This document shows, piece by piece, positions 7,206 through 22,662 of a DNA stretch of 64,000 nucleotides. Below the pieces are notes generated by a model, which was not told where the DNA came from, ran no database searches, and saw only the letters and a list, made by a program, of their open reading frames with translations. The stretch's first letter is position 1. Each line of letters begins with the position of its first letter. Origin of the DNA: Luteimonas fraxinea (lineage in GTDB: Bacteria > Pseudomonadota > Gammaproteobacteria > Xanthomonadales > Xanthomonadaceae). The translations under genes were made by a program, and so were the position numbers. Location of the stretch: NCBI RefSeq assembly GCF_021233355.1, contig NZ_CP089507.1, positions 3,944,184 to 4,008,183 of the forward strand. Reading direction: 5' to 3'.

Positions 7206-8324
7206 ATGGAATCCAACAGCTACCGGTTCACCGCAATGCGCGGGATCCAAGCCGGGCGGGCGTACTACGTGCTGATGTGCCCGCTCCGTCTTGTGCCACG
7301 GCTTTTTCGCTTTGATGACGAGGCTCTGCCGGCCGAGCTGCGTGCCCAAAGGGTGCTGAACCGGGTGCGGGTACCCCAGATTTCCCGCTACATGGTTGAC
7401 CATTCGAAGGAATACATCCTCTCGTCTCTGTGCGCTTCTGTCGATGGCGAGATCGAGTTCGAGCCGGTGGAGCGCTCTGGCCCGATGCGGTCGATCGGTC
7501 AGCTTCAGATCGGGATGAGCGCCACGATCCTCATTAACGACGGGCAGCATCGCCGCGCCGCAATTGAGGAGGCGCTTATCGAGCGTCCTGAGCTCGGAGA
7601 TGAATCGATCTCGATCGTGCTGTTCGTCGATGGCGGCTTGAAGCGCTCCCAGCAAATGTTCGCCGACCTCAACGTGCACGCGGTGCGCCCGACCAAGTCT
7701 ATCCGGCTCCTCTATGACCATCGAGACGAGCAGGCCAAGCTAGTGCGTCAGTTGATTCAAGCCATTCCGCTATTCCGAGAGTTCACTGATCTTGAAAAGA
7801 CCAGCATCTCCAACCGCTCTCTTAAGCTCTTTACGCTGAGCTCGCTTCACCAGGCTACGGGTCGCCTGCTCTGCAGATCCAAGGATAAGGCCTTCTCGCC
7901 AGGCGATCTCGAACTGGCAGTAGATTTTTGGAAGGCGGTGATCACCAACATGCCGGACTGGGAGCGAGTGGCTGAGCGCGCAGTCGTTGCGCATGAGCTT
8001 CGGCGCGACTATGTCCACGCCCACGGCATTGCTCTTCAAGCGATCGGCGTCGTGGGTGCGCAGTTGATCAGAGAGGAGCCCCGGGACTGGAAGACGCGCC
8101 TGAAGAGCCTTCGCGACATTGACTGGTCTCGCGCCAACACGTCGCTTTGGGAAGGCCGCGCATTGATGGGCGGCCGGATCAACAAGACCAGCCAGAGCAC
8201 TATCGCCGTTGCCAATGTCATCTCGCGTGAGCTCGATCTACCTTTGAGCGAAGAGTCGGCGCGCCTAGAAGCGTTGCTCCCGCCGCCCCCGCGTAGATCC
8301 CAAAAATCCAAGGTCGCTGCATGA
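7206..8324 (+). CDS. dndB: DNA phosphorothioation regulator DndB
   Basis: A 372-residue DGQHR-domain protein, first gene of a tightly packed dnd operon. The hallmark sits at residues 112-116 in the context NDGQHRRAA. The usual core follows (VLFVDGGLKRSQQMFADLN) and an alpha-helical C-terminal half. In characterised systems DndB is not needed for sulfur insertion but represses the dnd operon and modulates modification level. Its stop overlaps dndC by 4 bp. A second, divergent DGQHR protein is encoded at 14416-15687. The start follows from the frame and homologous N-terminus, since the upstream sequence has no clear Shine-Dalgarno. Confidence 0.9.
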   Translation: MESNSYRFTAMRGIQAGRAYYVLMCPLRLVPRLFRFDDEALPAELRAQRVLNRVRVPQISRYMVDHSKEYILSSLCASVDGEIEFEPVERSGPMRSIGQLQIGMSATILINDGQHRRAAIEEALIERPELGDESISIVLFVDGGLKRSQQMFADLNVHAVRPTKSIRLLYDHRDEQAKLVRQLIQAIPLFREFTDLEKTSISNRSLKLFTLSSLHQATGRLLCRSKDKAFSPGDLELAVDFWKAVITNMPDWERVAERAVVAHELRRDYVHAHGIALQAIGVVGAQLIREEPRDWKTRLKSLRDIDWSRANTSLWEGRALMGGRINKTSQSTIAVANVISRELDLPLSEESARLEALLPPPPRRSQKSKVAA

Positions 8325-9757
8325 CTCACCAACGCGCCGCAAGTTCTATCCCCGCACTGTATGAAGAAGTCCGCGAACTCTATCTCGCAGACACCCGCCC
8401 TTGGGTACTTGGCTTTAGCGGCGGCAAGGACTCGACGTGTGCCCTGCAAGTGGTTTGGACTGCGCTTGCAGCCCTTCCGCCTGAGCAGCGCGCAAAGCCG
8501 GTCTATGTGATCAGCTCCGATACGCTGGTCGAGACGCCCGTCATCGTGAACTACATCGATGCGACGCTTGAGCGTATCAATGACGCAGCGATCGCCCAGG
8601 GCATGCCGTTTCGCACCCACAAGGTCGTGCCGCGGATCGATCGCAGCTTCTGGGTCAACATGATCGGACGAGGCTACCCTGCCCCGTCGCGGCGTTTTCG
8701 CTGGTGCACTGAGCGACTCAAAATCGAGCCAGCGAACGAATTCATTCTCGATCGTGTAGCGGAGTTTGGTGAGGTCATCATGGTGCTCGGCGTGCGTTCT
8801 GCCGAGAGCGCTACGCGCGCCCAAGTGATGTCGTTCCACAAGATTAAGGGCTCGCGCCTCTCGCGCCATTCCTCACTCAATAATGCCTTCGTCTACTCGC
8901 CGATCGAGGCGTTCAGCACCGACGAGGTCTGGTCGTATCTGCTGCAAAACCAATCGCCTTGGGGCAATGACAATCGCGACCTAGTGGCGATGTATCGGAA
9001 TGCCCAGGCCGGCGAGTGTCCGCTCGTGGTCGACAAGACCACACCAAGCTGCGGCAATTCGCGGTTTGGCTGCTGGGTCTGCACTGTGGTGACCAAGGAC
9101 AAGGCGATGGAAGCGATGATCGACTCCGGCCAGGACTGGATGACGCCGCTCCTCGACTACCGCGACATGCTGGCTGCGACGCAGGATCCCGCAAAAAAGC
9201 GGGAAGTGCGCGACTTCCGTCGCCGCACGGGGCAAGTGTCGTTCAAGGCCGAGTCCGACGACGTGATCCCGGGCCCCTACACCATGGAGTTCTGCCGCAA
9301 GCTCCTCCGGGAGCTCTTGGAGGCGCAAAAGCAGGTGCAGGCCGACGCCCCGCCTGGCGAAGCCACTCAGCTCATTCACGAGACCGAGTTGCACGCGATC
9401 CGCAACATCTGGCGGACCGAGCGCGGCGACTGGCAGGACTCGATGCCCGCGATTGTGCGCGACGCACTCGGCGTCGAACTCGACTGGGTCGTCGACGATG
9501 CGGCGCACTACTCGCATGCCGATGGCCTGCTGCTCGAAAAGATATGCGCCGAGAACGACGTGCCAATGGAGCTCGTCGTGCGGCTTTTGGATATCGAGCG
9601 CTCTACTTATGGCATGAAGCGGCGCCACGCTGTGCATCACCGGATTGAAGACGCGCTTTCCGAGGAGTGGCGCCCGCTCGAAGAGGTGGTGTCCGAGCGT
9701 CGCAGCACGCTTGACATCACGATGATTCCATCCGCGCCCCCTGCCGAAGTCGACTGA
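8321..9757 (+). CDS. dndC: DNA phosphorothioation protein DndC, ATP pyrophosphatase/Fe-S enzyme
   Basis: A 478-residue member of the PAPS-reductase-like adenine nucleotide alpha-hydrolase family. The PP-loop SGGKDS is at residues 33-38. Cysteines at 129, 233, 244, 251 and 254 provide the [4Fe-4S] ligands, the last group in the context SCGNSRFGCWVC. DndC activates the DNA backbone and receives sulfur from the cysteine desulfurase. It overlaps dndB by 4 bp and dndD by 1 bp, so translation is probably coupled. No truncation or frameshift. Confidence 0.95.
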   Translation: MTHQRAASSIPALYEEVRELYLADTRPWVLGFSGGKDSTCALQVVWTALAALPPEQRAKPVYVISSDTLVETPVIVNYIDATLERINDAAIAQGMPFRTHKVVPRIDRSFWVNMIGRGYPAPSRRFRWCTERLKIEPANEFILDRVAEFGEVIMVLGVRSAESATRAQVMSFHKIKGSRLSRHSSLNNAFVYSPIEAFSTDEVWSYLLQNQSPWGNDNRDLVAMYRNAQAGECPLVVDKTTPSCGNSRFGCWVCTVVTKDKAMEAMIDSGQDWMTPLLDYRDMLAATQDPAKKREVRDFRRRTGQVSFKAESDDVIPGPYTMEFCRKLLRELLEAQKQVQADAPPGEATQLIHETELHAIRNIWRTERGDWQDSMPAIVRDALGVELDWVVDDAAHYSHADGLLLEKICAENDVPMELVVRLLDIERSTYGMKRRHAVHHRIEDALSEEWRPLEEVVSERRSTLDITMIPSAPPAEVD

Positions 9758-11745
9758 TGCTGATTCGTAACATTGTTTTGGAAGATTTCGGTCTCTACGC
9801 AGGCAGGCAAGTGATCGACGTCCAGCCGACGCGCGGCGCGCGAAAGGCGCGCCCGATCATCTTGGTAGGCGGCAAGAACGGCGCGGGCAAGACGAGTCTG
9901 CTCGAAGCCGTGCGTTTGACGCTCTATGGAAAGCTCGCGCTTGGCGAGCGCACGTCCCAATCTGCTTATGAGGACTATCTGCGCTCGCGCGTGCATACGG
10001 GCCCGAGCGCAGGCGGCCTTGGCCGAGCATCGGTTGGGATCGAGTTCGAATTCGCTGAATCGGGCGTGGTGCACATCTACGAGGTCTCCCGCGCCTGGAC
10101 GGTGCGGGGCAATGTCGTGCAAGAGAGCATGGACTTGCGCAAGAACGGGGAGACCGTGACGGTAGTGCCTCGGAATGAGTGGCAGAACTTCCTCCACGAG
10201 CTTTTGCCCGTCGGCGTCTCTCAGCTCTTCTTCTTCGACGGCGAGAAGATCACTGAGATCGCCGAAGACTCCACCGATGGCCACCAGCTCAGTGCCGCGA
10301 TCCGCAGTCTTCTGGGCATCGATCTTGTGGGGCGTCTGCGCACCGACCTTGGCCTCTACCTCTCTCGAAATCAACGCAGTGATGTAGGTTCAAATCAGGA
10401 GCTGGAAACGATCCTCGCCGAGCGCGACAAGATCGACGAAGAAGTGCGCAGCCTGAGCGACCAGCGCGCAGACCTGCAAACCCAGCTCGACGGTCAGCGC
10501 CGCGAATCAGCAAAGGCGCAGCAGCGCTTCACTGTGGGCGGCGGCGAAGTCGCGCTGAGGCGCTCAAGCTTGACGGCCGAGCGTAGCGCGCTCGATCACG
10601 AGCGCACCACCCTGCTCGCGCAGTTCAAGGAAGGCTCGTCAGGCCTCTGGCCGTGGCTCGTGGCGCCCACGTTGGTTGCGCGCCTACAGCTCGCGCTCGC
10701 GAAAGCTGGCGCAGCGGATCAGGACGCAGCTTCACGCCTGCAGAAGCGCTTCAACGCATGGCAGAAGAAAGCCGACGCCGCAACACAGCGCCGCTGGACG
10801 CAAGAGCACAAAGACGATTTCCAGGCGCTGCTCGAGGCCACCTTCAAGGCGTCCGACGCGCCGGCCGCCCCGCGCGCGCTCACCGCCGTGGGGAACGCCA
10901 CCCAGATACTGACGCAGGCAAGCGCGCAGCAATCCATCGTGCAAGGCTTCGCCGAGCGCCTGCGCACGCTCGAGGAGCGTATTGGAGAGATCGACACGTC
11001 CCTTGCGCGCGTGGACGAGACGACTGCGAGCTATCTGCTTGATGAGCTTCGGGGCGCGGAGCAATCCTACGGACAGACGCAGGGCCGTCTGAAAGTACTG
11101 CAGGAGTCGCTCGATGCGCTGCACTACAGGCGCGCGACGCTCGACAAGTCACGCGAGAAGCTCCTGATCAGCCAAGCAGAAGATCGGCGAGGCACGCGTC
11201 AGACCGAGCTCGCGAGCCGCATCGCCGCCTCGCTCGCGGCTTACGAGACCGCATTGATCGCCAGCAAAGTGCGCGCCTTGGAAGTCGCATTCGTCGATTG
11301 CTTCAATCGTCTGGCGCGCAAGGGCGACCTGGTGCGGGAAGTTCGCATCAGCGCTGACAATTTCCAGGCGACCCTGATTGGCAAGGATGGTGCCGAGATC
11401 CCACGCGTGCGCCTGTCCGCTGGCGAAAAGCAGGTCTTCGCAATCGCCATTCTCTGGGCGCTGGCCAAGACCAGCGGGCGTTCGCTGCCGGTCATCATCG
11501 ACACGCCGCTCGCGCGTCTAGATAGTGATCACCGCGCAGCAATCTTGGAGCGCTATCTACCCGAAGTGAGTCATCAGGTCGTCGTGCTCTCCACCGACAC
11601 TGAAGTAGATGTGGACATGGTGGGACAGCTTTCGGACTTCGTCGCCCAGACCCATCACCTCCAATATCTGCCGGACGAGCGCCGCACAGCGGTGGCGACT
11701 GGCTACTTCAAAAGCCGGAAGGGAGCATCCAGTGCACTACTCTAA
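9757..11745 (+). CDS. dndD: DNA sulfur modification ATPase DndD (SMC/Rad50-like)
   Basis: A 662-residue ABC/SMC-type ATPase. Walker A is GGKNGAGKTS (residues 38-47), FFFDGEKI follows in the first lobe, and a central coiled-coil rich in Glu, Arg and Gln (about residues 200-480) separates the lobes. The signature LSAGEKQ is at 553-559 and Walker B VIIDTPLARLD starts at 579. DndD is thought to drive the DNA nicking or opening needed for sulfur exchange. The length is usual for the family. Its last 14 bp overlap dndE. Confidence 0.95.
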   Translation: MLIRNIVLEDFGLYAGRQVIDVQPTRGARKARPIILVGGKNGAGKTSLLEAVRLTLYGKLALGERTSQSAYEDYLRSRVHTGPSAGGLGRASVGIEFEFAESGVVHIYEVSRAWTVRGNVVQESMDLRKNGETVTVVPRNEWQNFLHELLPVGVSQLFFFDGEKITEIAEDSTDGHQLSAAIRSLLGIDLVGRLRTDLGLYLSRNQRSDVGSNQELETILAERDKIDEEVRSLSDQRADLQTQLDGQRRESAKAQQRFTVGGGEVALRRSSLTAERSALDHERTTLLAQFKEGSSGLWPWLVAPTLVARLQLALAKAGAADQDAASRLQKRFNAWQKKADAATQRRWTQEHKDDFQALLEATFKASDAPAAPRALTAVGNATQILTQASAQQSIVQGFAERLRTLEERIGEIDTSLARVDETTASYLLDELRGAEQSYGQTQGRLKVLQESLDALHYRRATLDKSREKLLISQAEDRRGTRQTELASRIAASLAAYETALIASKVRALEVAFVDCFNRLARKGDLVREVRISADNFQATLIGKDGAEIPRVRLSAGEKQVFAIAILWALAKTSGRSLPVIIDTPLARLDSDHRAAILERYLPEVSHQVVVLSTDTEVDVDMVGQLSDFVAQTHHLQYLPDERRTAVATGYFKSRKGASSALL

Positions 11746-12103
11746 GCTCCGCATTTCTTCAGACGCGACCAGCAAGCTGCGTGCAATGCGCCAGCGGATG
11801 CGGATCACGCCAAACCTTCTGTGCCGCTATGCGCTGATGAGTTCTCTCGAAGACGGACCGATTGGCAATGCACCACTGCCCGATGAAGATGGGCAAGAGT
11901 TCAACGCGTCGACGCTCACGGGTGAGCAAACTCAACTCTTTCTCGCGGCTATCTCTGTCGTAGAAGAAGAGACGAGCAACAAGACGCCGTCCAATGCGCG
12001 CGTATTGGAGCTCCTGCGCTGCCACATTCACCGTGGCATCGGCTCGCTGTCCGTTCGCCTTCGCTCACCCGCAGATCTCTTCTTGCGCAAGGCTGATCGC
12101 TAA
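11732..12103 (+). CDS. dndE: DNA sulfur modification protein DndE
   Basis: A 123-residue protein starting at a GTG (position 11732), with the ribosome site GAAGGGAG 7 bp upstream inside dndD. The start matches the family N-terminus (HYSKLRISSDATSKLRAMRQR), and the length is normal for DndE, which forms a tetramer binding nicked duplex DNA. The C-terminus has GIGSLSVRLRSPADLF, resembling the conserved end of the family. Its stop TAA shares its last base with the ATG of the cysteine desulfurase gene. Confidence 0.9.
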   Translation: MHYSKLRISSDATSKLRAMRQRMRITPNLLCRYALMSSLEDGPIGNAPLPDEDGQEFNASTLTGEQTQLFLAAISVVEEETSNKTPSNARVLELLRCHIHRGIGSLSVRLRSPADLFLRKADR

Positions 12104-13263
12104 TGAGCGCTCCGCGCCCGCTCTACCTCGATCACAACGCAACGACGCCGATTGACCCGCGCGTGCTGAGCGCGATGCTCCCCTATTTCTCGGAGCAGTT
12201 TGGCAACCCGTCAAGTACCGAACACGTCTACGGAATCGAGGCCGCTGGCGCAGTAGAAACTGCGCGCGAGCAGGTCGCAAAAACGCTTGGCGCATCGGCC
12301 GGCGAGATAATTTTTACGGGGTCATGCACCGAAGCCGACAACCTCGCGATCGTGGGATCGGTGCGCGCGGCCGGAGGGCCGCGCCGGCTGATCACCAGCG
12401 CGATCGAGCATCCAGCGGTGCTCGAGTCGTTTCGCCTTCTGGAGAACGAGGGGCATCAGGTTCTGTATCTCGGGGTGGACGAGACAGGACGCGTGCGGCT
12501 TGACGAGCTCGAAAGTGCGCTGCGCGACACGACGTTCTTGGTCTCGATCATGGGCGCCAACAATGAGGTCGGCACGCTCCAGCCACTGACCGAGATCTCA
12601 GCACTCTGCGCCGCGGGCGGCGCACTGCTGCACTCCGACATCGCTCAAATGCCAGCGTATTGCGATGTGAGCGTAGACGCTCTGGGGCTGGATATGGCCA
12701 GCCTGTCAGGCCACAAGATATACGGCCCCAAGGGCGTAGGCGCCCTATATGTGCGCAGGCGTCGCCCGCGCACGAAGCTTTCTCCGCTCACTTGGGGTGG
12801 TGGCCACGAGAAAGGCTTGCGAAGCGCCACGCTCAACACTCCGCTGATTGTCGGATTTGGCGAGGCGATGGCGCTGTGCGCGAAGGAATGGCGGACTACA
12901 GCAAATCATACGTCGCAAATCACCGCGCAGATCCGTGACAACCTCACCGGAGCGCTGGACGGCGTGGAGGTCAACGGTTACGCCGAGCGCTTGCCGAACA
13001 ACCTCTCGCTTTCCATCGCAGGCGTCGAGCCGCTCGCACTTATCCGAGCCATGCGGAACATCGTTGCCTTTTCAGCATCGAGCGCCTGCTCCACTGATGC
13101 AGTCAAGACCTCACATGTCCTTCAAGCAATGTTCGGAGACATTCCGCGTGCGCAGCGGGCGTTTCGCTTCTCACCCGGCAAGAGCACGCCGACCGAGGGA
13201 ATCGCACCCGTGGTCGAGCGAATCCTAGAAAGCGTCCAAACGCTCCGGGCGATCAGCGGGTAG
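12103..13263 (+). CDS. dndA: Cysteine desulfurase DndA (IscS/NifS-type)
   Basis: A 386-residue PLP enzyme with the N-terminal YLDHNATTP signature. The PLP-binding lysine is K205 in SGHKIYGPKG, and the catalytic cysteine C329 is in SASSACST. It supplies the persulfide sulfur to DndC. Here it is the last gene of the operon (B-C-D-E-A) rather than divergent or replaced by a chromosomal iscS, so the unit is self-sufficient for modification. It converges with the ParB-like gene, the two stops being only 14 bp apart with no obvious terminator between. Confidence 0.93.
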   Translation: MSAPRPLYLDHNATTPIDPRVLSAMLPYFSEQFGNPSSTEHVYGIEAAGAVETAREQVAKTLGASAGEIIFTGSCTEADNLAIVGSVRAAGGPRRLITSAIEHPAVLESFRLLENEGHQVLYLGVDETGRVRLDELESALRDTTFLVSIMGANNEVGTLQPLTEISALCAAGGALLHSDIAQMPAYCDVSVDALGLDMASLSGHKIYGPKGVGALYVRRRRPRTKLSPLTWGGGHEKGLRSATLNTPLIVGFGEAMALCAKEWRTTANHTSQITAQIRDNLTGALDGVEVNGYAERLPNNLSLSIAGVEPLALIRAMRNIVAFSASSACSTDAVKTSHVLQAMFGDIPRAQRAFRFSPGKSTPTEGIAPVVERILESVQTLRAISG

Positions 13264-13277
13264 CTAAGCGTCAATCC

Positions 13278-14411
13278 TCAGCGTTGCCCCGCATCAATCT
13301 TCTCAATGACGCCTTCCACCAGCCCAATGCGATCGGAAATCACCTGTTCGAGCTTCCGGAGATAGCGAAGAAATTCGTCAGGATCATCTGCAATCGCGGA
13401 CTGCGGTAGCTTCCCCAGCATTTCCTCGGTCGCGCGCATCGCTTTGCGCCAGTCTTGGCCCTTATCAGCGCTCTCGCCGGCCTTTGCGCGCGCCGCCTGC
13501 ACCGTCAGGGTAAAGGCGTCGATCTCAGAGAGCAGGCTCTCCTGCCTGTTCTCCACCAGGTAAGCGACATCTTTCAGTTGGCGAGGTTCGTGGATGCGCC
13601 GCTGCCCATCATGCTCATCGCAAGGCGAGATCCACGAATACAGACGCCGAAGGCTATCCACATTCTCAAACGCCTTGTTCGACTCGCTCCACCCAAGCCA
13701 ATTCTTGAGCGTGGTGCTTTTCAGCACCTCGTTGAAGAGTGAAAAGTGATCGTTGCGCGCACGCTCTCGATACTCCTCATCCTTGCTCATCTGCCGGAGA
13801 GCATGGTGCGTGCGGTAGAGACGGCCGACCTCAACCGCCGACATCCCGAACTGCTGCGCCGCCTTGGAGATTGAACTGCCATGCAAATCGATTTGATCAG
13901 CAACGAGCTTGGCGCGCTGCGCGGGCGCCCACGTCTTGATGCCGCTGATATGGCGGATACCCTGAAATACCCAAGAGATGTCGCCCGGCTCATTCCCTTC
14001 GTAAACCATTACCTCAATCTTCCCGGTGCGCTCCACGAAGCGGCGCAACACGGCCTCGTCAACCGCATCAGGCGAGCTCACGCGCCCTCCTTGAATGTCG
14101 GCCCTCAGCTTCGTTAGCGCCCGGAAGCGCCGATTGCCTTCGACAATGATGAACCCGCCTGTCGTCGTCCTGAGCGGCCGTACGACGATGCGGTCAAGCA
14201 GCAAAAACCCGTTTTGGAGCATCCCGTTATATAGATCCTGCACGCCAAACGGGTCGATCTCCGTCCCCGTGCGCCGCTGAACCGCCTCATGGGAGACCCT
14301 CTCCTCCGCAACCGGATGTTTGGTCGCTTCACTCCAAAACCGAGGATTGTTTGGGTCCAAGTAGATCTGATCGACCGCGAGCACCTTGGCCTTCAATTCT
14401 TCGATCAGCAT
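13278..14411 (-). CDS. ParB/Srx-like protein of the dnd-linked operon, unknown function
   Basis: A 377-residue protein. An N-terminal ParB-like fold is indicated by LDPNNPRFW (residues 18-26), the segment GFLLLDRIVVRPL and the nucleotide-binding-like motif EGNRRFRAL (91-99). A helical part resembles the ParB HTH (SISKAAQQFGMSAVEVGRLYR). The C-terminus (about 300-377) is alpha-helical. It is the last gene of the minus-strand operon GIY-YIG, DGQHR, ParB-like, 4 bp after the DGQHR gene. It is too far from plasmid ParB to suggest partitioning. A DNA-binding or CTPase-type role in phosphorothioation-linked defence is inferred only from position. Confidence 0.72.
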   Translation of the reverse strand: MLIEELKAKVLAVDQIYLDPNNPRFWSEATKHPVAEERVSHEAVQRRTGTEIDPFGVQDLYNGMLQNGFLLLDRIVVRPLRTTTGGFIIVEGNRRFRALTKLRADIQGGRVSSPDAVDEAVLRRFVERTGKIEVMVYEGNEPGDISWVFQGIRHISGIKTWAPAQRAKLVADQIDLHGSSISKAAQQFGMSAVEVGRLYRTHHALRQMSKDEEYRERARNDHFSLFNEVLKSTTLKNWLGWSESNKAFENVDSLRRLYSWISPCDEHDGQRRIHEPRQLKDVAYLVENRQESLLSEIDAFTLTVQAARAKAGESADKGQDWRKAMRATEEMLGKLPQSAIADDPDEFLRYLRKLEQVISDRIGLVEGVIEKIDAGQR

Positions 14412-14415
14412 TTGC

Positions 14416-15687
14416 TCAGGACCTCCCGGGCGGTTTGGGCAGCCGGCGCGGAAGCTTCAATGCCTCGTCCCCTGTCGCCAGGCGGTAGCGTTCAAGCAAT
14501 GCGTCATCCTTCACATCGGTAAGCCCGACCATGTAGTCCAGGAGATCTCGCGCGAGTTTGCGCCCCGCGAGCACCATGGTCCGCTTTTCTGGATTCCAGA
14601 TAATGTCTCGGTAGGGCCTCGCCGAAAGTTCAGTCGGAACGTTTTTGAGTGCATCAATCGCTTGGAACAGCGTGAGGCCATGGCGCGTGGCGTAGCTGAT
14701 TGCGAGGCGCGTGAAGATCTCGAGTCCGGCGGGTCGAAAGAGAAGATGCCCTCCACTACTACTTCGGTATTTATGCGTAATCGCGGCCTCGTTGTCCTTC
14801 GCAGAGAAAAGCTCTTTCACCGGCGCAAACGCCTTCGCAAGCGACCCGAAGAACTTCACCGCATAAGCTTCAAGATCATCTAGACGAACATCTGACGGGC
14901 GATAAAAGCGCAGGCTCTCGTCCTTCTTGAGCTCATCTTTGAACTTGAAAACAAGCTTCAAGATGTCGTAGAGATTCACGATGTTCGTCAGTGCAATCCG
15001 GTTTGTGACCGGAAGCGACGTGCTTGAAGATACGAGGATCTTGGGTTCTTTAAACCATAGGTGGGACTCAACCAATCGCCGGGCGATGATGGCCATGGAG
15101 TCGTCCTCATCCAGTGCAATGATGTCCGCCTTCGCCACCGGCTTCGCGGTCTTGTTAAGCGTTGTAAAAAGACGCCTTGTGCGCTCTCGCTCCTTCTCAT
15201 TGTGTCCAATGAATATCACAGCCAGGCGCTCGCCTCCGAAATCAAAGCCGTCCCCAATTGCTTTCTTGATACCCGCCAACCGATGCTGGCCATCCACCGC
15301 GAAAATCTTTTCGTTGCCGCTGAGGCTCAGAAAGCCGAACGATTCAAGCGCCTGCGGGTCGGTCGCTTGCAACACTGCGGCGCTTGTCTCGGAATGAAGA
15401 TTCCCGACCTCAAGCCATTTCGGCTTCCCGCCGTAGGTCGCGAGCACGAGCGAGTTGAAAAAGCGTTGGGGGGTCTTTTCTAAGTAGCTACTCACACTCT
15501 TGGCTCGGCTGCCTTCCAAAGAGCGCTGAATGAGATCGGAGAGCGCTTTGCTTTCGTGGATGTGCGCCGCGTAATCAACACGTCTCGCTAGCTCAGCCGC
15601 AGGTATCAGGCACGAGTAGTAGATCCAGTCTCCCATTCCGCCTCTGAGCGCTGGTAAGAGAAGCATGTCTTTTGCTTTGGCTACCAT
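14416..15687 (-). CDS. DGQHR-domain protein (DndB-related) of the dnd-linked operon
   Basis: A 423-residue protein with DGQHR at residues 132-136 in FAVDGQHRLAGIKKAI. This is followed by LAVIFIGHNEKERERTRRLFTTLNK, the usual continuation of the family (compare VLFVDGG..SQQMFADLN in DndB). It is a distant paralogue of the DndB encoded 6 kb away. Its start overlaps the end of the GIY-YIG gene by 7 bp, and the ParB-like gene follows 4 bp downstream. Sensing or control of phosphorothioate modification is a reasonable inference; a nuclease partner role is equally open. Confidence 0.82.
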   Translation of the reverse strand: MVAKAKDMLLLPALRGGMGDWIYYSCLIPAAELARRVDYAAHIHESKALSDLIQRSLEGSRAKSVSSYLEKTPQRFFNSLVLATYGGKPKWLEVGNLHSETSAAVLQATDPQALESFGFLSLSGNEKIFAVDGQHRLAGIKKAIGDGFDFGGERLAVIFIGHNEKERERTRRLFTTLNKTAKPVAKADIIALDEDDSMAIIARRLVESHLWFKEPKILVSSSTSLPVTNRIALTNIVNLYDILKLVFKFKDELKKDESLRFYRPSDVRLDDLEAYAVKFFGSLAKAFAPVKELFSAKDNEAAITHKYRSSSGGHLLFRPAGLEIFTRLAISYATRHGLTLFQAIDALKNVPTELSARPYRDIIWNPEKRTMVLAGRKLARDLLDYMVGLTDVKDDALLERYRLATGDEALKLPRRLPKPPGRS

Positions 15688-16190
15688 GTTGCATCCCTTG
15701 CGTCGCGCACTGACGCGTCGATATCCGTCTTGTTGACAGGAGGCACGATTGCACTAAGGAAGCTACGCTCGATCTTGGCAAGACTCACACGCTTGTCTGG
15801 CACGGGCGCAAAATTGAAGAACAGGTCGTCCTTCCACTGGTCGAGCATTGCGCAGACTTTGACTCGTTTACTCATTCGCCTCGCATCTGCCAAATACTGC
15901 CCATAGCGAACCTGCAAGTCAGAACCCGAGCTGTCCCCAGTGATCCCCATGTAGAGGATGTAACCGTGCGTTGGCATGTCTGGACTGTCCATCAACACCG
16001 TAAACGCGTAGACGCCCCGCTCCTTGGGCACCGAAGACTTGTTTGCCTTCAGAAAACGCGTGCGCTGCCAGTTCAAGGACGCGCTTGATTTGAACGCGCG
16101 CCACTTCTTGATGTCGACGTAGAACTGCACATTGAACATCGCGAACTCGCCAGCCGCGAACACAATGTCGTGATAACGCCCTCTTGCCAA
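15681..16190 (-). CDS. GIY-YIG nuclease-like protein of the dnd-linked operon
   Basis: Up to 169 residues. The GIY-YIG fold is read from GVY (59-61), YILYMGITG with YMG (80-82) in place of YIG, a catalytic-type arginine R95 in LQVRYGQYL, glutamate E141 in LAKIERSFL and asparagine N153 in PPVNK. All positions expected for a catalytic centre are present. The ATG at 16139 (MFNVQFYV) is as likely as the one at 16190. It is the first gene of the operon with the DGQHR and ParB-like genes. An IS3 copy ends 76 bp upstream of the 16190 start and may have displaced the promoter. No known Dnd restriction protein has this architecture as far as I recall. Confidence 0.68.
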
Positions 16191-16335
16191 GACCGCCCCC
16201 GGTGCTGCTTCCCTACGCCAATTCTCGGCACTTCTGAGGCAATCCTACACGTGGCGTCGCTCCACGGGTAATCCCCCCGCGCAATAGCTGACGTCAGAAG
16301 TGGAATTTTCTCGTACGCTTTCCCGAGGAGGTTCC

Positions 16336-16602
16336 ATGAAGAAGTCCCGCTTCACCGACAGCCAGATCATTGCCGTGCTCAAGCAGGCCGAGGCCGGCAC
16401 ACCGGTCCCTGAGCTGTGCCGCGAGCACGGCATCAGCTCGGCCACGTTCTACAAGTGGCGCAGCAAGTTCGGCGGCATGGAGGTGTCCATGGTGGTCCGC
16501 ATGAAGGAGCTGGAGGATGAAAACCGGCGACTCAAGAAGATGTACGCCGACGCCCAGCTCAGCGCCGACCTGTTGAAGGAGGCGATGTCAAAAAAATGGT
16601 GA
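16336..16602 (+). CDS. IS3 transposase OrfA
   Basis: An 88-residue HTH protein starting [10 protein letters not shown] after the ribosome site GAGGAGG. The HTH region ([19 protein letters not shown]) and the following leucine-zipper-like helix ([17 protein letters not shown]) are typical of IS407-group OrfA. It ends in a run of seven A, a likely programmed -1 frameshift site that would give an OrfAB fusion. Confidence 0.92.
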
Positions 16603-17423
16603 GGCCATCTCAGCGCCGGGAGATGGCCCGATGCGCAGTTCAGGACGAACGCACCAGCATCCGGCATGCCTGCCAGACCTTCGGCGTCAGCGAGACCTGC
16701 TACCGCTACGAGGCAAAGGCCTGCGAGGAGAACGCCCACATCGCCGACTGGCTGGTCCGACTGACCACTGCGTACAAGGATTGGGGCTTTGGGCTGTGCT
16801 TCCTGCACCTGCGCAACGTCAAGGGCTTTGGCTGGAACCACAAGCGCGTCTACCGCATCTACCGGGAGCTGGAGTTGAATCTGCGGATCAAGCCGAAGAA
16901 GCGAATCGTGCGTGAGAAGCCCGAGCCGCTGTCGGTCCCCGAGTCGATCAACCAGGTCTGGTCGATGGACTTCATGCACGACCAGCTCAGCGATGGCCGC
17001 AGCTTCAGGCTGTTCAACGTGCTGGACGACTTCAACCGCGAGGGCCTCGGGATCGAGGTGGATCTGTCGTTGCCCGCGGCGCGTGTGATCCGGTCTCTGG
17101 AGCAGATCATCGAGTGGCGCGGCAAGCCCAATTCAATCCGCTGCGACAATGGTCCGGAGTACATCAGTGGCGCTCTGCTGAGCTGGGCCGAGCGCCAAGG
17201 CATCAAGATCGAGCATATCCAACCGGGCAAGCCACAACAGAACGCCTACATCGAACGCTACAACCGCACTGTTCGTTACGGCTCGCTCGCACGAACCCTG
17301 TTCGACACCATCGACCAGGTGCAGGACAAGGCCACGCGCTGGCTATGGACGTACAACCACGAGCGCCCGAACATGGCGCTTGGTGGCATCACCCCGATGC
17401 AGAAGCTAGCGATAGCTGCATAG
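16596..17423 (+). CDS. IS3 transposase OrfB (DDE integrase core)
   Basis: 275 residues including the HTH_21-like N-terminus. The DDE residues are visible: D in WSMDFMHD, D in IRCDNGPEY and E in QNAYIERYN. The C-terminal [14 protein letters not shown] is the family end. It overlaps orfA by 7 bp at the A7 slippery run. The frame is intact, so the element may still be active. Confidence 0.92.
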
Positions 17424-17800: not shown

Positions 17801-18937
17801 ATGCCAGCACAGACGCCAACGCCCGACGACATCTGGAACAAGACGATCGCCTTCATCTCGATTGATACAAACGTTCTATTTGAGACCGGCTTTCAGTTCA
17901 CGAGTGGCGCGCTCAATCAGCTTCCCGCTCAGATGCCTGACAGCCTCCATCTTGTTTTCAGCCCTGTTGTGGCCGAAGAAGTTAAGCGCCATCGCGTTAA
18001 GTCAGTGAAGAAGCATAGCGATTCCATTGCGGCGGCCATTGCGGGGATCCGGCGCGCGGCATCGCAGGATGTCTCTTCGATATCGTCCGCACTCGATGAT
18101 TTGAACGTCGTAGGCAATGCTGAGCGCACTTTCGATCAAGAACTCCTCGACTACGCGCAACGCTGTAGCGGCACTATTCTTACCTGGGAGGATGTATCAG
18201 TAGAGGCCGTGTTCGCAGACTATTTTCGGCAGAGTCCGCCCTTTGAAGATGGGAAGAAATCCGAGTTCCCGGACGCCGTAACGCTGCAGATCCTGCATAG
18301 ATACGCAGAACGCCTGGGCTCGACTGGAATTTTCGTAACCAAAGACCAAGGCTGCCAACGCTTCGCTGCGGATTCGGACCGAATCTACGCAGTGTCGTCC
18401 CTCGACGATCTTACGTCGCTATTTCAAGCAACGGGCAAGTCGGCGCAAGACATTTCCGATGCGATCGAAGCGCACATCCTTCATTCAACGTCTCCCGGCT
18501 ACAGCGCTGTAAACGAAGCGATCGAGCGACATGTCGCGCATTCCGAGTGGGATGTTCTCAACCTAACGCCTGACCTAGGTGGCCGCATGGAAGCAGAGGT
18601 TGTCGATGTGCGCATCAAACGACTCAACCTCGAACAATACATCATGCTCTGGCGAGACGACGATGCTGACGACACATGGATCGCGGAAGTGAGAGCAGCT
18701 GTCCAAGTAGACGTGAATGTTTCAGCCGAGCTCTACGTCTACGACTCACGTGATAAGGACGAAACGCTGATTCTGCGAGATCAGAAGTCCTTCCCTGAGC
18801 AGATAGATGTCGCAGTATTCGTCCACCTGACGAACGTCTCGCTCGCCAAGCCTCCGTCTGCTTGGAACCTGTCCTTCGACATTGCCTCGACCAACTACCG
18901 GCTAAGCGCCACAAATTTCGAGTTCGACGCGCGCTAA
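17801..18937 (+). CDS. PIN-domain protein (DUF4935-like), putative RNase
   Basis: A 378-residue protein with an N-terminal PIN-like nuclease fold. Acidic residues fall at the expected places: D22 in FISIDTNVLF, E59/E60 in VVAEEVKRH, D158 in EFPDAVTLQIL and D182 in VTKDQGC. The domain ends near residue 210, and a C-terminal beta-rich region (about 240-378) has no family I recognise. Large PIN proteins of this kind are frequent in defence islands, where they are suspected RNA-cleaving effectors. It stands alone on the plus strand, with no antitoxin-sized partner. Which nucleic acid it cleaves cannot be told. Confidence 0.72.
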   Translation: MPAQTPTPDDIWNKTIAFISIDTNVLFETGFQFTSGALNQLPAQMPDSLHLVFSPVVAEEVKRHRVKSVKKHSDSIAAAIAGIRRAASQDVSSISSALDDLNVVGNAERTFDQELLDYAQRCSGTILTWEDVSVEAVFADYFRQSPPFEDGKKSEFPDAVTLQILHRYAERLGSTGIFVTKDQGCQRFAADSDRIYAVSSLDDLTSLFQATGKSAQDISDAIEAHILHSTSPGYSAVNEAIERHVAHSEWDVLNLTPDLGGRMEAEVVDVRIKRLNLEQYIMLWRDDDADDTWIAEVRAAVQVDVNVSAELYVYDSRDKDETLILRDQKSFPEQIDVAVFVHLTNVSLAKPPSAWNLSFDIASTNYRLSATNFEFDAR

Positions 18938-19149: not shown

Positions 19150-19809
19150 CTAACGATGCTTAAGAACAATCTTGATCCACCGCACTTCTGTACGTTTTAA
19201 GTAGTCCTCAGATTTTCGCCCCTGATAAATCACTTCCAGCCCAGCGGCTGCCGACTGAGCAATGAATTCGCAGACGTCGATGGGGTACATCGGCCTGTCG
19301 GGCAGCTCGGCACCGATTCTGAGAGTTAACGCAATGCTTCCGTCTATACTGAGTAGCTGCTTCATGCTCTGCAGAGAGAGCGGACGATCCCTCGGCTCGA
19401 TGTGCATCCAAACGGCACTTAACAGGATGAAATCATAGGTATCCCTAAGAGCCTTCACCTTGTCTAGGTTCGGCAAATAATCATCGATCCATCTAATTTT
19501 TGCTTTGCGATGCTTGGCCTCAGCAAGAGCTCGAAGACCATGACTTGGCTCGACCGCAGTAACTTCATATCCTCGCGCTGCGAGTGCGGATGCGTCCCTA
19601 CCCGATCCCGCACCAATGTCCAAGCACCTTGCCCCTGGTGCAGGAAGAAATCGCAGAAAAGATCGATGGGTAGACGAAAAGCGAAGGCTCTCATAGGTCT
19701 GAAAGAACCTGTCACTAGCTTCATCGTAAGCGGACCAAGCTGCTCGACTCACGGCGGCGGCTTTCGCAAGGCGTTTGTCGGCGGCTTGACTAGAGGGACG
19801 GCAATGCAT
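19150..19809 (-). CDS. Class I SAM-dependent methyltransferase
   Basis: Up to 219 residues. Motif I is CLDIGAGSGRDASAL, followed by VTAVEPS (motif II acidic end of beta-2), DFILLSAVWMH (motif IV region) and a C-terminal beta-hairpin-like end (RWIKIVLKHR). The fold is that of small-molecule or protein methyltransferases; no NPPY-type DNA motif is present. The 5' end overlaps the upstream membrane-protein gene by 61 bp. An internal GTG near residue 20 is an alternative start, because the first residues look unlike the family. Substrate unknown. It sits beside a membrane protein and a PIN protein in a defence-rich stretch. Confidence 0.72.
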   Translation of the reverse strand: MHCRPSSQAADKRLAKAAAVSRAAWSAYDEASDRFFQTYESLRFSSTHRSFLRFLPAPGARCLDIGAGSGRDASALAARGYEVTAVEPSHGLRALAEAKHRKAKIRWIDDYLPNLDKVKALRDTYDFILLSAVWMHIEPRDRPLSLQSMKQLLSIDGSIALTLRIGAELPDRPMYPIDVCEFIAQSAAAGLEVIYQGRKSEDYLKRTEVRWIKIVLKHR

Positions 19810-20375
19810 AAACGAGGCAACGCCGGTTTCGCGACCACCTCAATTCTTAGTGCGGAACGGTCCGCTTCCTTGGAGGGAGCCAGCTTCTTTGACAATGATG
19901 AGGGATGAGAGGCGCCAAGCAGGCTGACAATGGCTGAACCGAGAAGCGCGGCGGTCCAGCAGTTAATGACAATGTTCTTAGGCCCTGCCGTATTCGGCGT
20001 CTCAGCGGAAAACTGATCCTGCTTATCGATTTGTGTTTGTATCAGACGGCGAAGGCGTCGAATTATCCTAATAGCCAGAAGGCTAAAGAAAGCAGCAAAA
20101 ATCAGAACCGCGATGCGAGCTCTTGGGTCTTCAACCGTAGTGGCCCCGTACCAAAGGCCGCCGGTGATCGCGATTACGATGCTTGGAACCTGCCACATCA
20201 GTTGATTCAACGACCGCAGATGCTGACCGGCTTCCAAGTACTGAAGCTCACGCTGTCGGAATCCCCATTTCCGATCTTCGAGCTCACTGGCGAGGCGGTT
20301 CTTTAATATCTCTATCGATTCTAGAGGCGTGGGATTCATGTCGAGGAAAGCCTCGCCGACCAGATCGGCCTGCAA
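19749..20375 (-). CDS. Small membrane protein with three predicted TM segments
   Basis: A 208-residue protein with an N-terminal amphipathic or coiled region (about residues 15-60), hydrophobic segments around VPSIVIAITGGLWYG and IAVLIFAAFFSLLAI, and a third around CWTAALLGSAIVSLLG. The C-terminal tail is basic and proline-rich. The arrangement, helix bundle followed by a TM hairpin, recalls SLATT-like membrane effectors, but I cannot assign the family. It precedes and overlaps the methyltransferase gene, so the two are probably co-expressed. Confidence 0.5.
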   Translation of the reverse strand: MQADLVGEAFLDMNPTPLESIEILKNRLASELEDRKWGFRQRELQYLEAGQHLRSLNQLMWQVPSIVIAITGGLWYGATTVEDPRARIAVLIFAAFFSLLAIRIIRRLRRLIQTQIDKQDQFSAETPNTAGPKNIVINCWTAALLGSAIVSLLGASHPSSLSKKLAPSKEADRSALRIEVVAKPALPRLCIAVPLVKPPTNALRKPPP

Positions 20376-20971: not shown

Positions 20972-21892
20972 CTAGGATAACGCAGACATCCGCGTCGCGA
21001 GCAAGTCGGCCTGCTCGGCAAACTTCTTCAAATCGGTCTTCTGCAACTGCGCCAGGTTGTGCAGCTTCCAGCGGATGCCCGGCAGTTGTTCAAGGTGCGC
21101 GATGCCCAGCAACGACCACTCCGGCGTGCCGGCAACCAGCGACAACAGAAAGCGCCGCTCGCTCTGGTCCAAGCCCTGATGGATTTCGCGCGCCATGCGT
21201 TCTCGCGCGGCGAGCAACGCATCGAGTGGTACCGGCTCGGTCGTCATGCCTTGGAAGTTGTGCGCGTAGTCGTGCCGGATGTCCCTCAGCGGAGGGAACA
21301 GCACTTCATGGATCGGCCGGTTGCTGCTGGACAGGTAGACCACGAAAGCGCGCCGGATGCCAGGCGTGATGCCCTCGTGCGCAAAGAGCTGCATCACGTC
21401 GAATAGGTCGCGCGGGTGCTGCCTATCCAGTGCCGCCACCAGCTTGCCGCCGTACACGTCCTCCAGCGACACCACCGGGATGTCCAGATCGGCCATCAAC
21501 ACATCGCGCGCGGTCGGTGTGAGCGAAGCGCGGCGCACCGGCTGCACGGTGCCGCGCATGACGAAGTTGACTTCGATCTTGACCTGGATCGAGCCGCGGC
21601 GTACCAGCAATTTGGTCTCCCCTGCTGCTGCCGCCGGCACATGCGTCTGGAATCCTCGCTTCTTCAAGCGCTCTGCGGCCTGCCGGACGGCCTCGTTGAT
21701 GCGCGTCAGCGCCGCGTCACGCGGCAGCGTGTGATCGGGAAAGACCAGATCGAGATCGACCGACAAGCGCGGCATGTCGCGCACGAACAGATTGATCGCC
21801 GTGCCGCCCTTCAATGCGAAGGTGCCGTCCACGAACACCAGCGGCGCCACCTGCGTTAGCAACCGCGCGGTATCGAGATAGACCGGATTCAT
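20972..21892 (-). CDS. AbiEii toxin, nucleotidyltransferase of a type IV toxin-antitoxin system
   Basis: A 306-residue AbiEii/AbiGii-type nucleotidyltransferase. The catalytic signature is LKGGTAINLF (residues 28-37) followed by RLSVDLDLVF, giving the GG...DxD metal-binding pattern. VYGGKLVAALDRQHPRDLFDV is the usual second conserved block. These toxins block growth, in studied members by modifying tRNA. The gene overlaps its antitoxin by 4 bp and lies at the extreme trb end of the ICE, a typical site for a stabilising addiction module. Confidence 0.9.
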   Translation of the reverse strand: MNPVYLDTARLLTQVAPLVFVDGTFALKGGTAINLFVRDMPRLSVDLDLVFPDHTLPRDAALTRINEAVRQAAERLKKRGFQTHVPAAAAGETKLLVRRGSIQVKIEVNFVMRGTVQPVRRASLTPTARDVLMADLDIPVVSLEDVYGGKLVAALDRQHPRDLFDVMQLFAHEGITPGIRRAFVVYLSSSNRPIHEVLFPPLRDIRHDYAHNFQGMTTEPVPLDALLAARERMAREIHQGLDQSERRFLLSLVAGTPEWSLLGIAHLEQLPGIRWKLHNLAQLQKTDLKKFAEQADLLATRMSALS

Positions 21893-22626
21893 GGCTTGAG
21901 CACCAGCAGGCCATCAGCCGATCGGGACACCCAGGGCCGGTCGCTGCCCGTCGGCAGCTTGGCCGGATCGAGCTTGGCTGCCCAAGGTAGCGACGCCTCG
22001 CGGGCAAGTTGCAGGCACAGCCGCACGGTCTTGACGCTTGTGCAGCGTTGCAGGAGTTCGCGCAGCACGTCAGCGCGCAGGCTATAGGCGCTTTCGACGA
22101 GTTCGCGGGCTTCCTGCAACGGCTGACGCACGCCGACTTCGCTTAACAGTTCCAGCAATGCGCGCTCCGGCGCGGACACCTGCGGCGCCCCGCTGCGCTT
22201 CTCGAACGGGCCGACGTGTAGCAAGACGTCCGGCTGCTCGTCGAACAGACGCTTGCGGTGGTACTCGGCCGGGAAACGTTCGGTGAACCATTCCGGCAGA
22301 CGCGCTGCCGTCCAGCCATACAGGTGCAGCGCGGGCTGCTGCGACACGTACTGGCGCACGCCGTACCAGTCCAGGGCCGACTTGCCGCCAACGTGCAACC
22401 CCGCGAACCTGCGCTGCAACAGCAGCAGGCTGGGATGCAGAGCCAGGGTGTCGTTCGGACGGCCATAGACGCCGCGCGCCAGGCGCGTGAGCCATCCTGC
22501 CCGGACGTAGTGGACGGCCAAGTCGGCGGAGATGCCCAGCGCCGCCAAATCCTCGGAGGTCAGTGGCGTCCCCGGTGCCAGCCGGGTGTAGAGCGCATTT
22601 AGCTTGCTTTTAGTAGTCGTAGCCAT
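21889..22626 (-). CDS. AbiEi antitoxin, winged-helix autorepressor
   Basis: A protein of about 245 residues if started at the ATG at 22626 (MATTTKSKLNALYTRL). A TTG at 22662 extends the frame but coincides with the -35 box described below and is unlikely. The N-terminal winged helix (LTSEDLAALGISADLAVHYVRAGWLTRLARGVYGRP) is typical of AbiEi, and the C-terminal domain includes PERALLELLSEVG. AbiEi proteins neutralise AbiEii without direct binding and repress their own operon through paired inverted repeats. Two such repeats of identical spacing overlap and precede this start. Confidence 0.88.
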   Translation of the reverse strand: MATTTKSKLNALYTRLAPGTPLTSEDLAALGISADLAVHYVRAGWLTRLARGVYGRPNDTLALHPSLLLLQRRFAGLHVGGKSALDWYGVRQYVSQQPALHLYGWTAARLPEWFTERFPAEYHRKRLFDEQPDVLLHVGPFEKRSGAPQVSAPERALLELLSEVGVRQPLQEARELVESAYSLRADVLRELLQRCTSVKTVRLCLQLAREASLPWAAKLDPAKLPTGSDRPWVSRSADGLLVLKP

Positions 22627-22662
22627 ACTACGATTTTTACAACTTTTCCAAGCGAGAGTCAA
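22617..22662 (-). promoter_or_regulatory. abiE promoter with operator IR1, apparently leaderless
   Basis: On the minus strand TTGACT (22662-22657) and TAAAAA (22639-22634) are separated by exactly 17 bp. The predicted start of transcription falls within a base or two of the ATG at 22626, implying a leaderless message. The inverted repeat TCGTAG-N5-CTACGA at 22617-22633 covers the start codon and presumed +1, an ideal place for AbiEi repression. Confidence 0.55.

Follow-up and report, generated by a model that had tools for sequence, protein, structure and literature searches.

The restriction branches described for phosphorothioate (PT) DNA modification systems are dndFGH/sspFGH, sspE and pbeABCD (review PMC12707154). 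SspE and DndI are single chains in which a PT-responsive ParB-superfamily nucleoside triphosphatase (NTPase) is coupled with an HNH nickase (PMC11662687, PMC10952713), and DndI is reported to be cotranscribed with dndFGH (PMC11662687). Of 3416 taxa in which an endonuclease is linked, 806 have DndFGH, and many PT clusters lack it (PMC10853773); the same paper (Rakesh, Aravind and Krishnan, 2024) places URI/GIY-YIG proteins among the nucleases at the borders of Dnd clusters, sometimes on the opposite strand, and suggests that they serve as a suicidal back-up. TIGR04172 (DGQHR_dnd_1) has in turn been described as a PT-satellite family (PMC3226654). Here we consider a GIY-YIG nuclease gene and its DGQHR-protein neighbour, which lie beside a dnd cluster in ‘the window’: the whole 64,000-nucleotide stretch analysed, forming the last 64 kb of the 4.0-Mb single-contig genome of Luteimonas fraxinea (NZ_CP089507.1, positions 3,944,184 to 4,008,183, forward strand).

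On the minus strand of the window, the GIY-YIG nuclease gene (15681..16190, 169 aa, TTG start) is followed by a gene for a DGQHR protein, a paralogue of DndB (14416..15687, 423 aa), and then by one for a ParB-like protein (13278..14411, 377 aa). An earlier sequence-only reading had proposed these as a three-gene operon, and both its positions and its spacing (a 7-bp overlap between the first two genes, then a 4-bp gap) were confirmed on the sequence; the ParB-like stop codon lies 14 bp from that of dndA, the operon being convergent with the dnd cluster. The trio does not stand as a unit, however: what is conserved is the GIY-YIG/DGQHR pair, with the ParB-like protein as an optional accessory. 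One genome per species was scanned with an alignment-based DGQHR profile, yielding 261 relatives, and the best 80 were taken as loci (numbered L); these were chosen by sequence and not by neighbourhood, were found through the DGQHR partner, and lean towards relatives of the four seed sequences (from the window, Rhizobium K1/93, Roseobacter and Rhizobium NXC14), all of which come from PT loci. A GIY-YIG open reading frame (ORF) lies directly upstream of the DGQHR gene in 77 of these 80 loci, at a spacing of -11 to +23 bp in 76 of the 77, as measured from the start codon nearest the GIY-YIG stop, which flatters tight spacing. As labelled in their records, the relatives belong to Proteobacteria, Acidobacteria, Chloroflexi, cyanobacteria and Poribacteria, with two archaeal metagenome-assembled genomes; many loci are metagenome bins, so that for some of them the taxon, or what is said of the genome, may be in error.

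In three loci no pair is seen. One (L054) starts at a contig edge, and two carry other upstream genes: in L048 the place of GIY-YIG is taken by an HNH gene, at a distance of at least about 350 bp from the DGQHR gene, whilst in L047 (7763-11212) the DGQHR gene comes directly after genes for a CD-NTase (cGAS/DncV-like nucleotidyltransferase) resembling that of cyclic-oligonucleotide-based anti-phage signalling systems (CBASS) and an HNH-SAVED protein; neither L047 nor L048 has a PT module nearby or DndC in its genome. Plasmids give the same picture, with five matches to the GIY-YIG protein and six to the DGQHR protein, all five of the former adjoining one of the latter. On the Rhizobium K1/93 plasmid the pair has SspFGH and SspC/SspD genes as neighbours; it lies 52 bp after sspABCD on that of Roseobacter litoralis, and before dndBCDE-A on that of Rhizobium NXC14, with PbeA- and PbeC-like genes beyond; ParB is absent beside the pair in all three of these plasmid regions. 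Amongst the 80 loci a ParB gene was found in three. It is 49-50% identical and directly follows the DGQHR gene in L010 and L011, but only 28% identical over 184 aa in L012, where a helicase gene intervenes. The window protein itself scores 18.9 bits with PF02195, under the cut-off of 26.3, and 151 bits with the PADLOC model PDC-M38A. A ParB relative and a ResIII-type helicase also lie beside a dnd cluster without the pair (L120, 15220-18956, minus strand), an arrangement similar to that of L012; helicase and ParB could possibly form a separate Dnd accessory.

The sequence-only reading had tied the operon to Dnd; the association with phosphorothioation holds, but is not Dnd-specific. In 65 of the 77 pair loci a PT module of Dnd, Ssp or DndE-HerA type lies within about 10 kb (the fetched stretch), three of them (L032, L055, L060) being included on the strength of DndE-HerA and DndD pieces that lie where short contigs end. 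For eight further pair loci PT genes are found outside that stretch, in the same genome, bringing the total to 73 of 77: SspD in L036, L039, L050, L076 and L079, and DndC over its cut-off in L013, L085 and L086, as well as in L079. The SspD family also matched 7 of 14 control genomes, so only matches at E 4e-107 or better were counted, and weaker ones (genomes of L054, L060, L047, L013, L085 and L068) were left out. Ssp is the type in 41 of the 77, with labels checked by PADLOC on the query proteins. The DndE-HerA variant comprises DndC, DndD and a DndE domain fused to a HerA/FtsK-type ATPase (L034, L038, L058, L061, L064, L072, L073 and L078, in addition to the three edge loci); the fusion was identified with Pfam (PF08870 plus TrwB/DUF87) in L064 and by clustering in the others. 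In such loci the pair often follows directly, and separate canonical dndE, dndB and dndA genes are unseen in most; six sampled loci of this type lack the pair (L125-L130).

The last four pair loci comprise two with a weak SspD-like protein (L035, L042), one that is unclear (L068) and one in which no PT gene was found (L081). In L035, L036 and L042 the pair adjoins the gene of a PP-loop-like protein, some 482 residues long and with weak similarity to SspD (a contig end cuts the L036 copy). L035 and L042 have a cysteine desulfurase in addition, and L036 a PDC-M33A-like protein; together these genes may make up an undescribed PT-type modification system. The pair of L081 (Vibrio sinaloensis) sits within 20 mostly short same-strand genes that resemble, though this is not proven, an integron cassette array. 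L086, a Serratia genome, was rejected as an Ssp locus and is not amongst the 41, the gene in question being of the PAPS (3'-phosphoadenosine 5'-phosphosulfate)-reductase family and having a phage replication gene A and DinI next to it. The pair is likewise near a PAPS-reductase-family gene in L193 and L194 (as at L086, 9429-15507), with replication gene A again in L193, so the pair may be cargo of P2-like phages in these loci.

For background, 398 Pseudomonadota genomes were searched: DndC exceeds its cut-off in 13 and SspC is found in 10, with no overlap, and the GIY-YIG family appears at high score in two, in each of which the contig concerned also carries dnd genes. The other 43 matches to the GIY-YIG profile (E 0.001) reach at most 29 bits and are UvrC-like where read; in 26 of 28 fetched loci a long ORF includes a stretch resembling UvrC, as judged from the motif by eye. 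The pair thus accompanies, as an accessory, a minority of PT systems, and is rarely seen without PT.

That the 169-residue window protein has a GIY-YIG fold is confirmed by a predicted structure (predicted local distance difference test score, pLDDT, 92.6), for which the ten top-ranking solved structures are, without exception, those of GIY-YIG enzymes; the best matches are UvrC, Eco29kI, PD-T4-3 (a GIY-YIG enzyme per the literature, and 5-hydroxymethylcytosine-specific according to its structure entry title) and Hpy188I. Profile-profile comparison matches it to the UvrC GIY-YIG domain (98.3%, E 1.4e-14), and UvrC is the sole match of the family profile amongst PDB sequences. No Pfam model matches the window protein, and PF01541 reaches E 0.01 or better with 17 of the 76 members of its family. 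The catalytic residues named by the sequence-only reading, R95, E141 and N153, are all present. In the family alignment, from which a fragment (L019) and a broken copy (L079) were left out, Y80, G82 and R95 are kept in 76 of 76 rows, E141 in 75, and G59 and Y61 in 75 (one gap); position 153 is Asn in 41 rows and Ser in 20. The broken copy, from Devosia aurantiaca (L079, 9508-9992), is a GIY-YIG gene split over two frames, in a genome where a dndC is also in pieces and an SspD gene is present. A single GIY-YIG protein query found no match in 368 other genomes of the class; the alignment-based DGQHR scan did find relatives.

Its partner belongs, as had been claimed, to the DGQHR proteins, exceeding the cut-offs of both PF14072 (E 1.3e-23, 84.1 bits against 29.1) and TIGR03187 (106 bits against 58.85), and matches DndB over 357 columns in profile-profile comparison (E 1.6e-28). 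It is not a DndB equivalog (TIGR03233, 51.3 bits against a cut-off of 328), nor a DGQHR_dnd_1 protein (TIGR04172, 30.1 bits against 450). The DGQHR motif is kept in 78 of 78 family rows, and the family forms its own clade (84 of 84) apart from 11 DndB proteins, with a support of only 0.63 in a fast tree. A structure model (pLDDT 91.6) has a ParB/sulfiredoxin-like N-terminal domain, which matches ParB-CTP and sulfiredoxin-ATP structures and, more weakly, SspE and BrxU, and a helical C-terminal domain (184-423) with no convincing match amongst solved structures, although nothing points to a new fold; PDB sequences gave the DGQHR profile no match. A single DGQHR protein query found no match in 149 other relatives, and the three operon proteins show no match to DUF1524 and one to DUF262 only at E 0.2. 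A different DGQHR protein, at 24-28 bits to the family profile, converges on dndE in two dnd clusters with dptFGH (L196, 17559-19483; L197, 16524-18427), where it is preceded by a membrane-like protein of 206-228 residues without a GIY-YIG match; slot and layout are the same. This other protein sits between dndE and dptH in Aliivibrio and Pseudoalteromonas, and its upstream partner is not GIY-YIG.

The two genes of the pair evolve in step and have moved together between PT systems. Distances in the GIY-YIG and DGQHR families are correlated over 76 pairs (r 0.87, against a maximum of 0.16 in 999 permutations), and within the 41 Ssp loci the correlation is 0.93 for the pair versus 0.73 with SspD. 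Parsimony on the DGQHR tree gives at least 14 changes of PT type over 68 classified loci, where 200 shuffles give a minimum of 19; as this is below the shuffles, yet many, the pair may follow the mark rather than any one enzyme.

The dnd cluster of the window, on the plus strand, comprises dndB (7206..8324; TIGR03233, 481 bits, cut-off 328), dndC (8321..9757; TIGR03183, 586 bits, cut-off 290), dndD (9757..11745; TIGR03185, 487 bits, cut-off 246), dndE (ORF as listed 11609..12103; TIGR03184, 83 bits, cut-off 72) and a dndA-type gene (12103..13263). The true start of dndE is probably near 11735, because the DndE domain begins at about residue 46 of the listed ORF. The dndA product is clearly a cysteine desulfurase (PADLOC DndA, E 1.7e-133), but at 420.9 bits with TIGR03235 it falls under the DndA-specific cut-off of 480; dndBCDE plus a cysteine desulfurase is the canonical Dnd modification make-up, and the set is complete, as the sequence-only reading had it. 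Its further claim, that dndFGH is missing, holds for DndH, which was not found in the whole genome by a search whose control was positive in 5 of 14 genomes; an equally empty DndF search had a control that was silent everywhere and so shows little, and DndG was outside the genome-wide search. No DUF262/GmrSD_N protein was found in the genome either (control positive in 8 of 14 genomes), and one PbeC-like ATPase query gave no match there, in a search that had no positive control.

As to the mutual exclusion with dndFGH that had been predicted, single queries from an annotated Aliivibrio cluster (DptF, DptG and DptH), of a kind that misses distant relatives and run on some short contigs, matched nothing in the 80 loci, the window or L004-L009, save for 23 bits to the DndE-HerA protein of L064; in random PT loci they found DptF in L122, DptH in L131 and a 23-bit match in L152. 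Thus DndFGH proteins occur in two of six canonical Dnd loci lacking the pair (L120, L121, L122, L124, L131, L135), and in none of 11 that carry it; the window, L006 and the 15 kb fetched from G554 (L123) are likewise without them. For Dnd an exclusion is slightly favoured (one-sided hypergeometric about 0.08, counted by hand), in a sample too small to show it; for SspFGH it fails. Using the Rhizobium K1/93 proteins named SspF, SspG and SspH by PADLOC as queries, SspFGH was found beside the pair in 8 of the 80 loci, all of Ssp type. PbeA-like helicases (profile score of at least 150 bits) accompany it in 24, and no DUF262 appeared amongst the 25 of 51 Pfam families listed in a tally of downstream genes that left out 10 of 66 genes. 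In 21 Ssp loci the pair takes up the slot within 250 bp after sspD; of 10 sampled Ssp loci, four hold SspFGH (L156) or a PbeA-like helicase (L151, L154, L158) at that place.

Upstream of the operon lies an insertion sequence (16300-17423) whose ORFs match HTH_Tnp_1 and rve, followed by a plus-strand gene for a PIN-domain protein (17801..18937; PF16289, E 4.4e-20) that is 25% identical to the product of a PIN_12 gene adjoining the pair on the Rhizobium K1/93 plasmid, and is possibly a distant partner of the operon with the insertion sequence in between. Next comes a minus-strand methyltransferase gene (19150..20375), its upstream part in a second overlapping ORF, whose product has 40% identity over 192 aa to that of a gene between the DGQHR gene and dndB on the Rhizobium NXC14 plasmid; the methyltransferase cluster is found in nine examined loci, the window included. 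The NXC14 gene is a single ORF, against the two of the window, and a frameshift is possible. An AbiEi/AbiEii toxin-antitoxin pair (20972-22662, minus strand) adjoins conjugation genes, and because TrbI, CagX, VirB8 and TrbL matches occur beyond the methyltransferase gene, the region probably belongs to a conjugative element. The operon has a G+C content of about 0.57, against 0.62 for dndC-A and 0.65-0.70 for the conjugation genes.

Drawing on these findings and on the analogy with SspE and DndI, we give a little better than even odds to a model in which the GIY-YIG and DGQHR proteins would act as a two-protein effector that reads the PT state of DNA, that is, a PT-gated nuclease; it is favoured because SspE and DndI unite a PT-responsive ParB-superfamily NTPase with an HNH nickase. 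The DGQHR protein would sense PT marks, or their absence, through nucleotide binding and hydrolysis; on PT-marked self DNA it would restrain the GIY-YIG nuclease, presumably by direct contact, and on unmarked invading DNA it would license nicking or cutting, to anti-phage effect, such that the pair would correspond to SspE and DndI in split form, with a GIY-YIG nuclease. Since DndI is cotranscribed with dndFGH, coexistence with another module does not count against an effector role. We also speculate, somewhat more doubtfully than not, that the pair constitutes a distinct class of PT-gated effector, in which a DndB-derived NTPase reads the sulfur mark and controls a GIY-YIG nuclease in trans. 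If this is true, then the occurrence of the same pair with Dnd, Ssp and DndC-DndD-DndE/HerA systems would mean that gating by PT arose repeatedly, and would place the known regulator DndB in a lineage of PT sensors.

The principal rival, which we think unlikely, places the pair within modification itself, the DGQHR protein acting as a second DndB-like regulator whilst the GIY-YIG enzyme nicks or processes DNA for the insertion or removal of sulfur. The DGQHR protein is after all a paralogue, over most of its length, of DndB, which has been described as a PT regulator, and in 30 Ssp loci the pair is co-directional and downstream of sspD, within 250 bp in 21, and so probably lies in the modification operon. 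Against this, of the 11 canonical Dnd loci, several of which have their own dndB, 7 show the pair in convergent orientation, and its many changes of PT type would be odd for the subunit of one enzyme; moreover, as its occurrence in 2 of 398 genomes, against 13 for DndC and 10 for SspC, indicates, most sampled PT clusters do without it, so it is not generally required for modification. Rather improbable, in our judgement, is a suicidal or back-up effector of the kind that PMC10853773 proposes for a stand-alone URI nuclease at Dnd borders, which would destroy DNA indiscriminately when the PT system is inhibited and would read no PT mark. The border position, sometimes on the opposite strand (in the window, and in that paper), fits such a role, as does the frequent coexistence of other restriction modules; the broken GIY-YIG gene of L079, together with its fragmented dndC, would fit a toxic effector, but SspD is kept there and it is one case. 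The window genome, however, yielded no DndH or DUF262 protein for the pair to back up, and the nuclease is not stand-alone, having a DndB paralogue for partner in nearly every locus, albeit loci found via that partner.

A last rival holds that there is no functional link, the pair being ordinary defence-island cargo that comes to lie near PT clusters by chance. The AbiE, PIN, insertion-sequence and conjugation genes of the window region, and the lower G+C of the operon relative to dndC-A, are consistent with it. So too is L081, whose genome carries the pair but yielded no PT gene, and which also weighs against our proposal of a PT-gated nuclease. Yet PT genes lie near, or in the genome of, 73 of 77 pair loci versus 23 of 398 sampled genomes, and the pair has re-associated repeatedly with three PT types; we therefore regard chance cargo as very improbable indeed. 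Overall, the sequence-only reading is partly supported, and of the findings that it said would speak against it (the trio mostly in genomes without dnd genes, dndFGH elsewhere in this genome, a predicted structure without the GIY-YIG fold), none, as far as checked, came out that way.

How, then, does the pair relate to known enzymes and systems? Like Eco29kI, Hpy188I and PD-T4-3, the window enzyme's family is GIY-YIG, but it is paired with a DndB-like protein, and we know of no DndB-like working partner for those three. DndB and TIGR04172 are, like the DGQHR protein of the pair, DGQHR-domain proteins linked to PT, although the protein of the pair scores far under the cut-offs of both. The sequence-only reading could name no published system of this kind, and in the literature searched, with subscription papers and preprints outside its scope, we found no description of the pair or of its link to Ssp. 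The URI genes of PMC10853773, however, are of the same GIY-YIG superfamily, lie beside Dnd and may include this nuclease family; the paper proposes a stand-alone URI, its main text has no mention of DGQHR, and its section 17 and the passages available give no partner and no link to Ssp. It leaves open, in those parts, which nuclease uses the PT mark where DndFGH is lacking, and the pair is one candidate, with a defined partner, a wide spread and a simple, testable design; DndB, whose role is debated, is here linked to a sensor-plus-nuclease arrangement. Found beside several different PT systems, the pair may be a little-recognised weapon, or safety switch, of PT defence.

DndFGH and SspFGH are likewise linked to PT, and SspFGH can take the same slot after sspD, but no protein families were seen that they have in common with the pair, and none of the operon's three proteins matches an F, G or H. 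Another close parallel is with SspE (of SspABCD-SspE) and DndI (of IscS-DndBCDE-DndI), in which a ParB-fold NTPase with a DGQQR motif and an HNH nickase form a single chain of DUF262 and DUF1524 HNH domains; the pair instead distributes its parts over two genes, with the DndB/DGQHR family in place of DUF262 and GIY-YIG in place of HNH.

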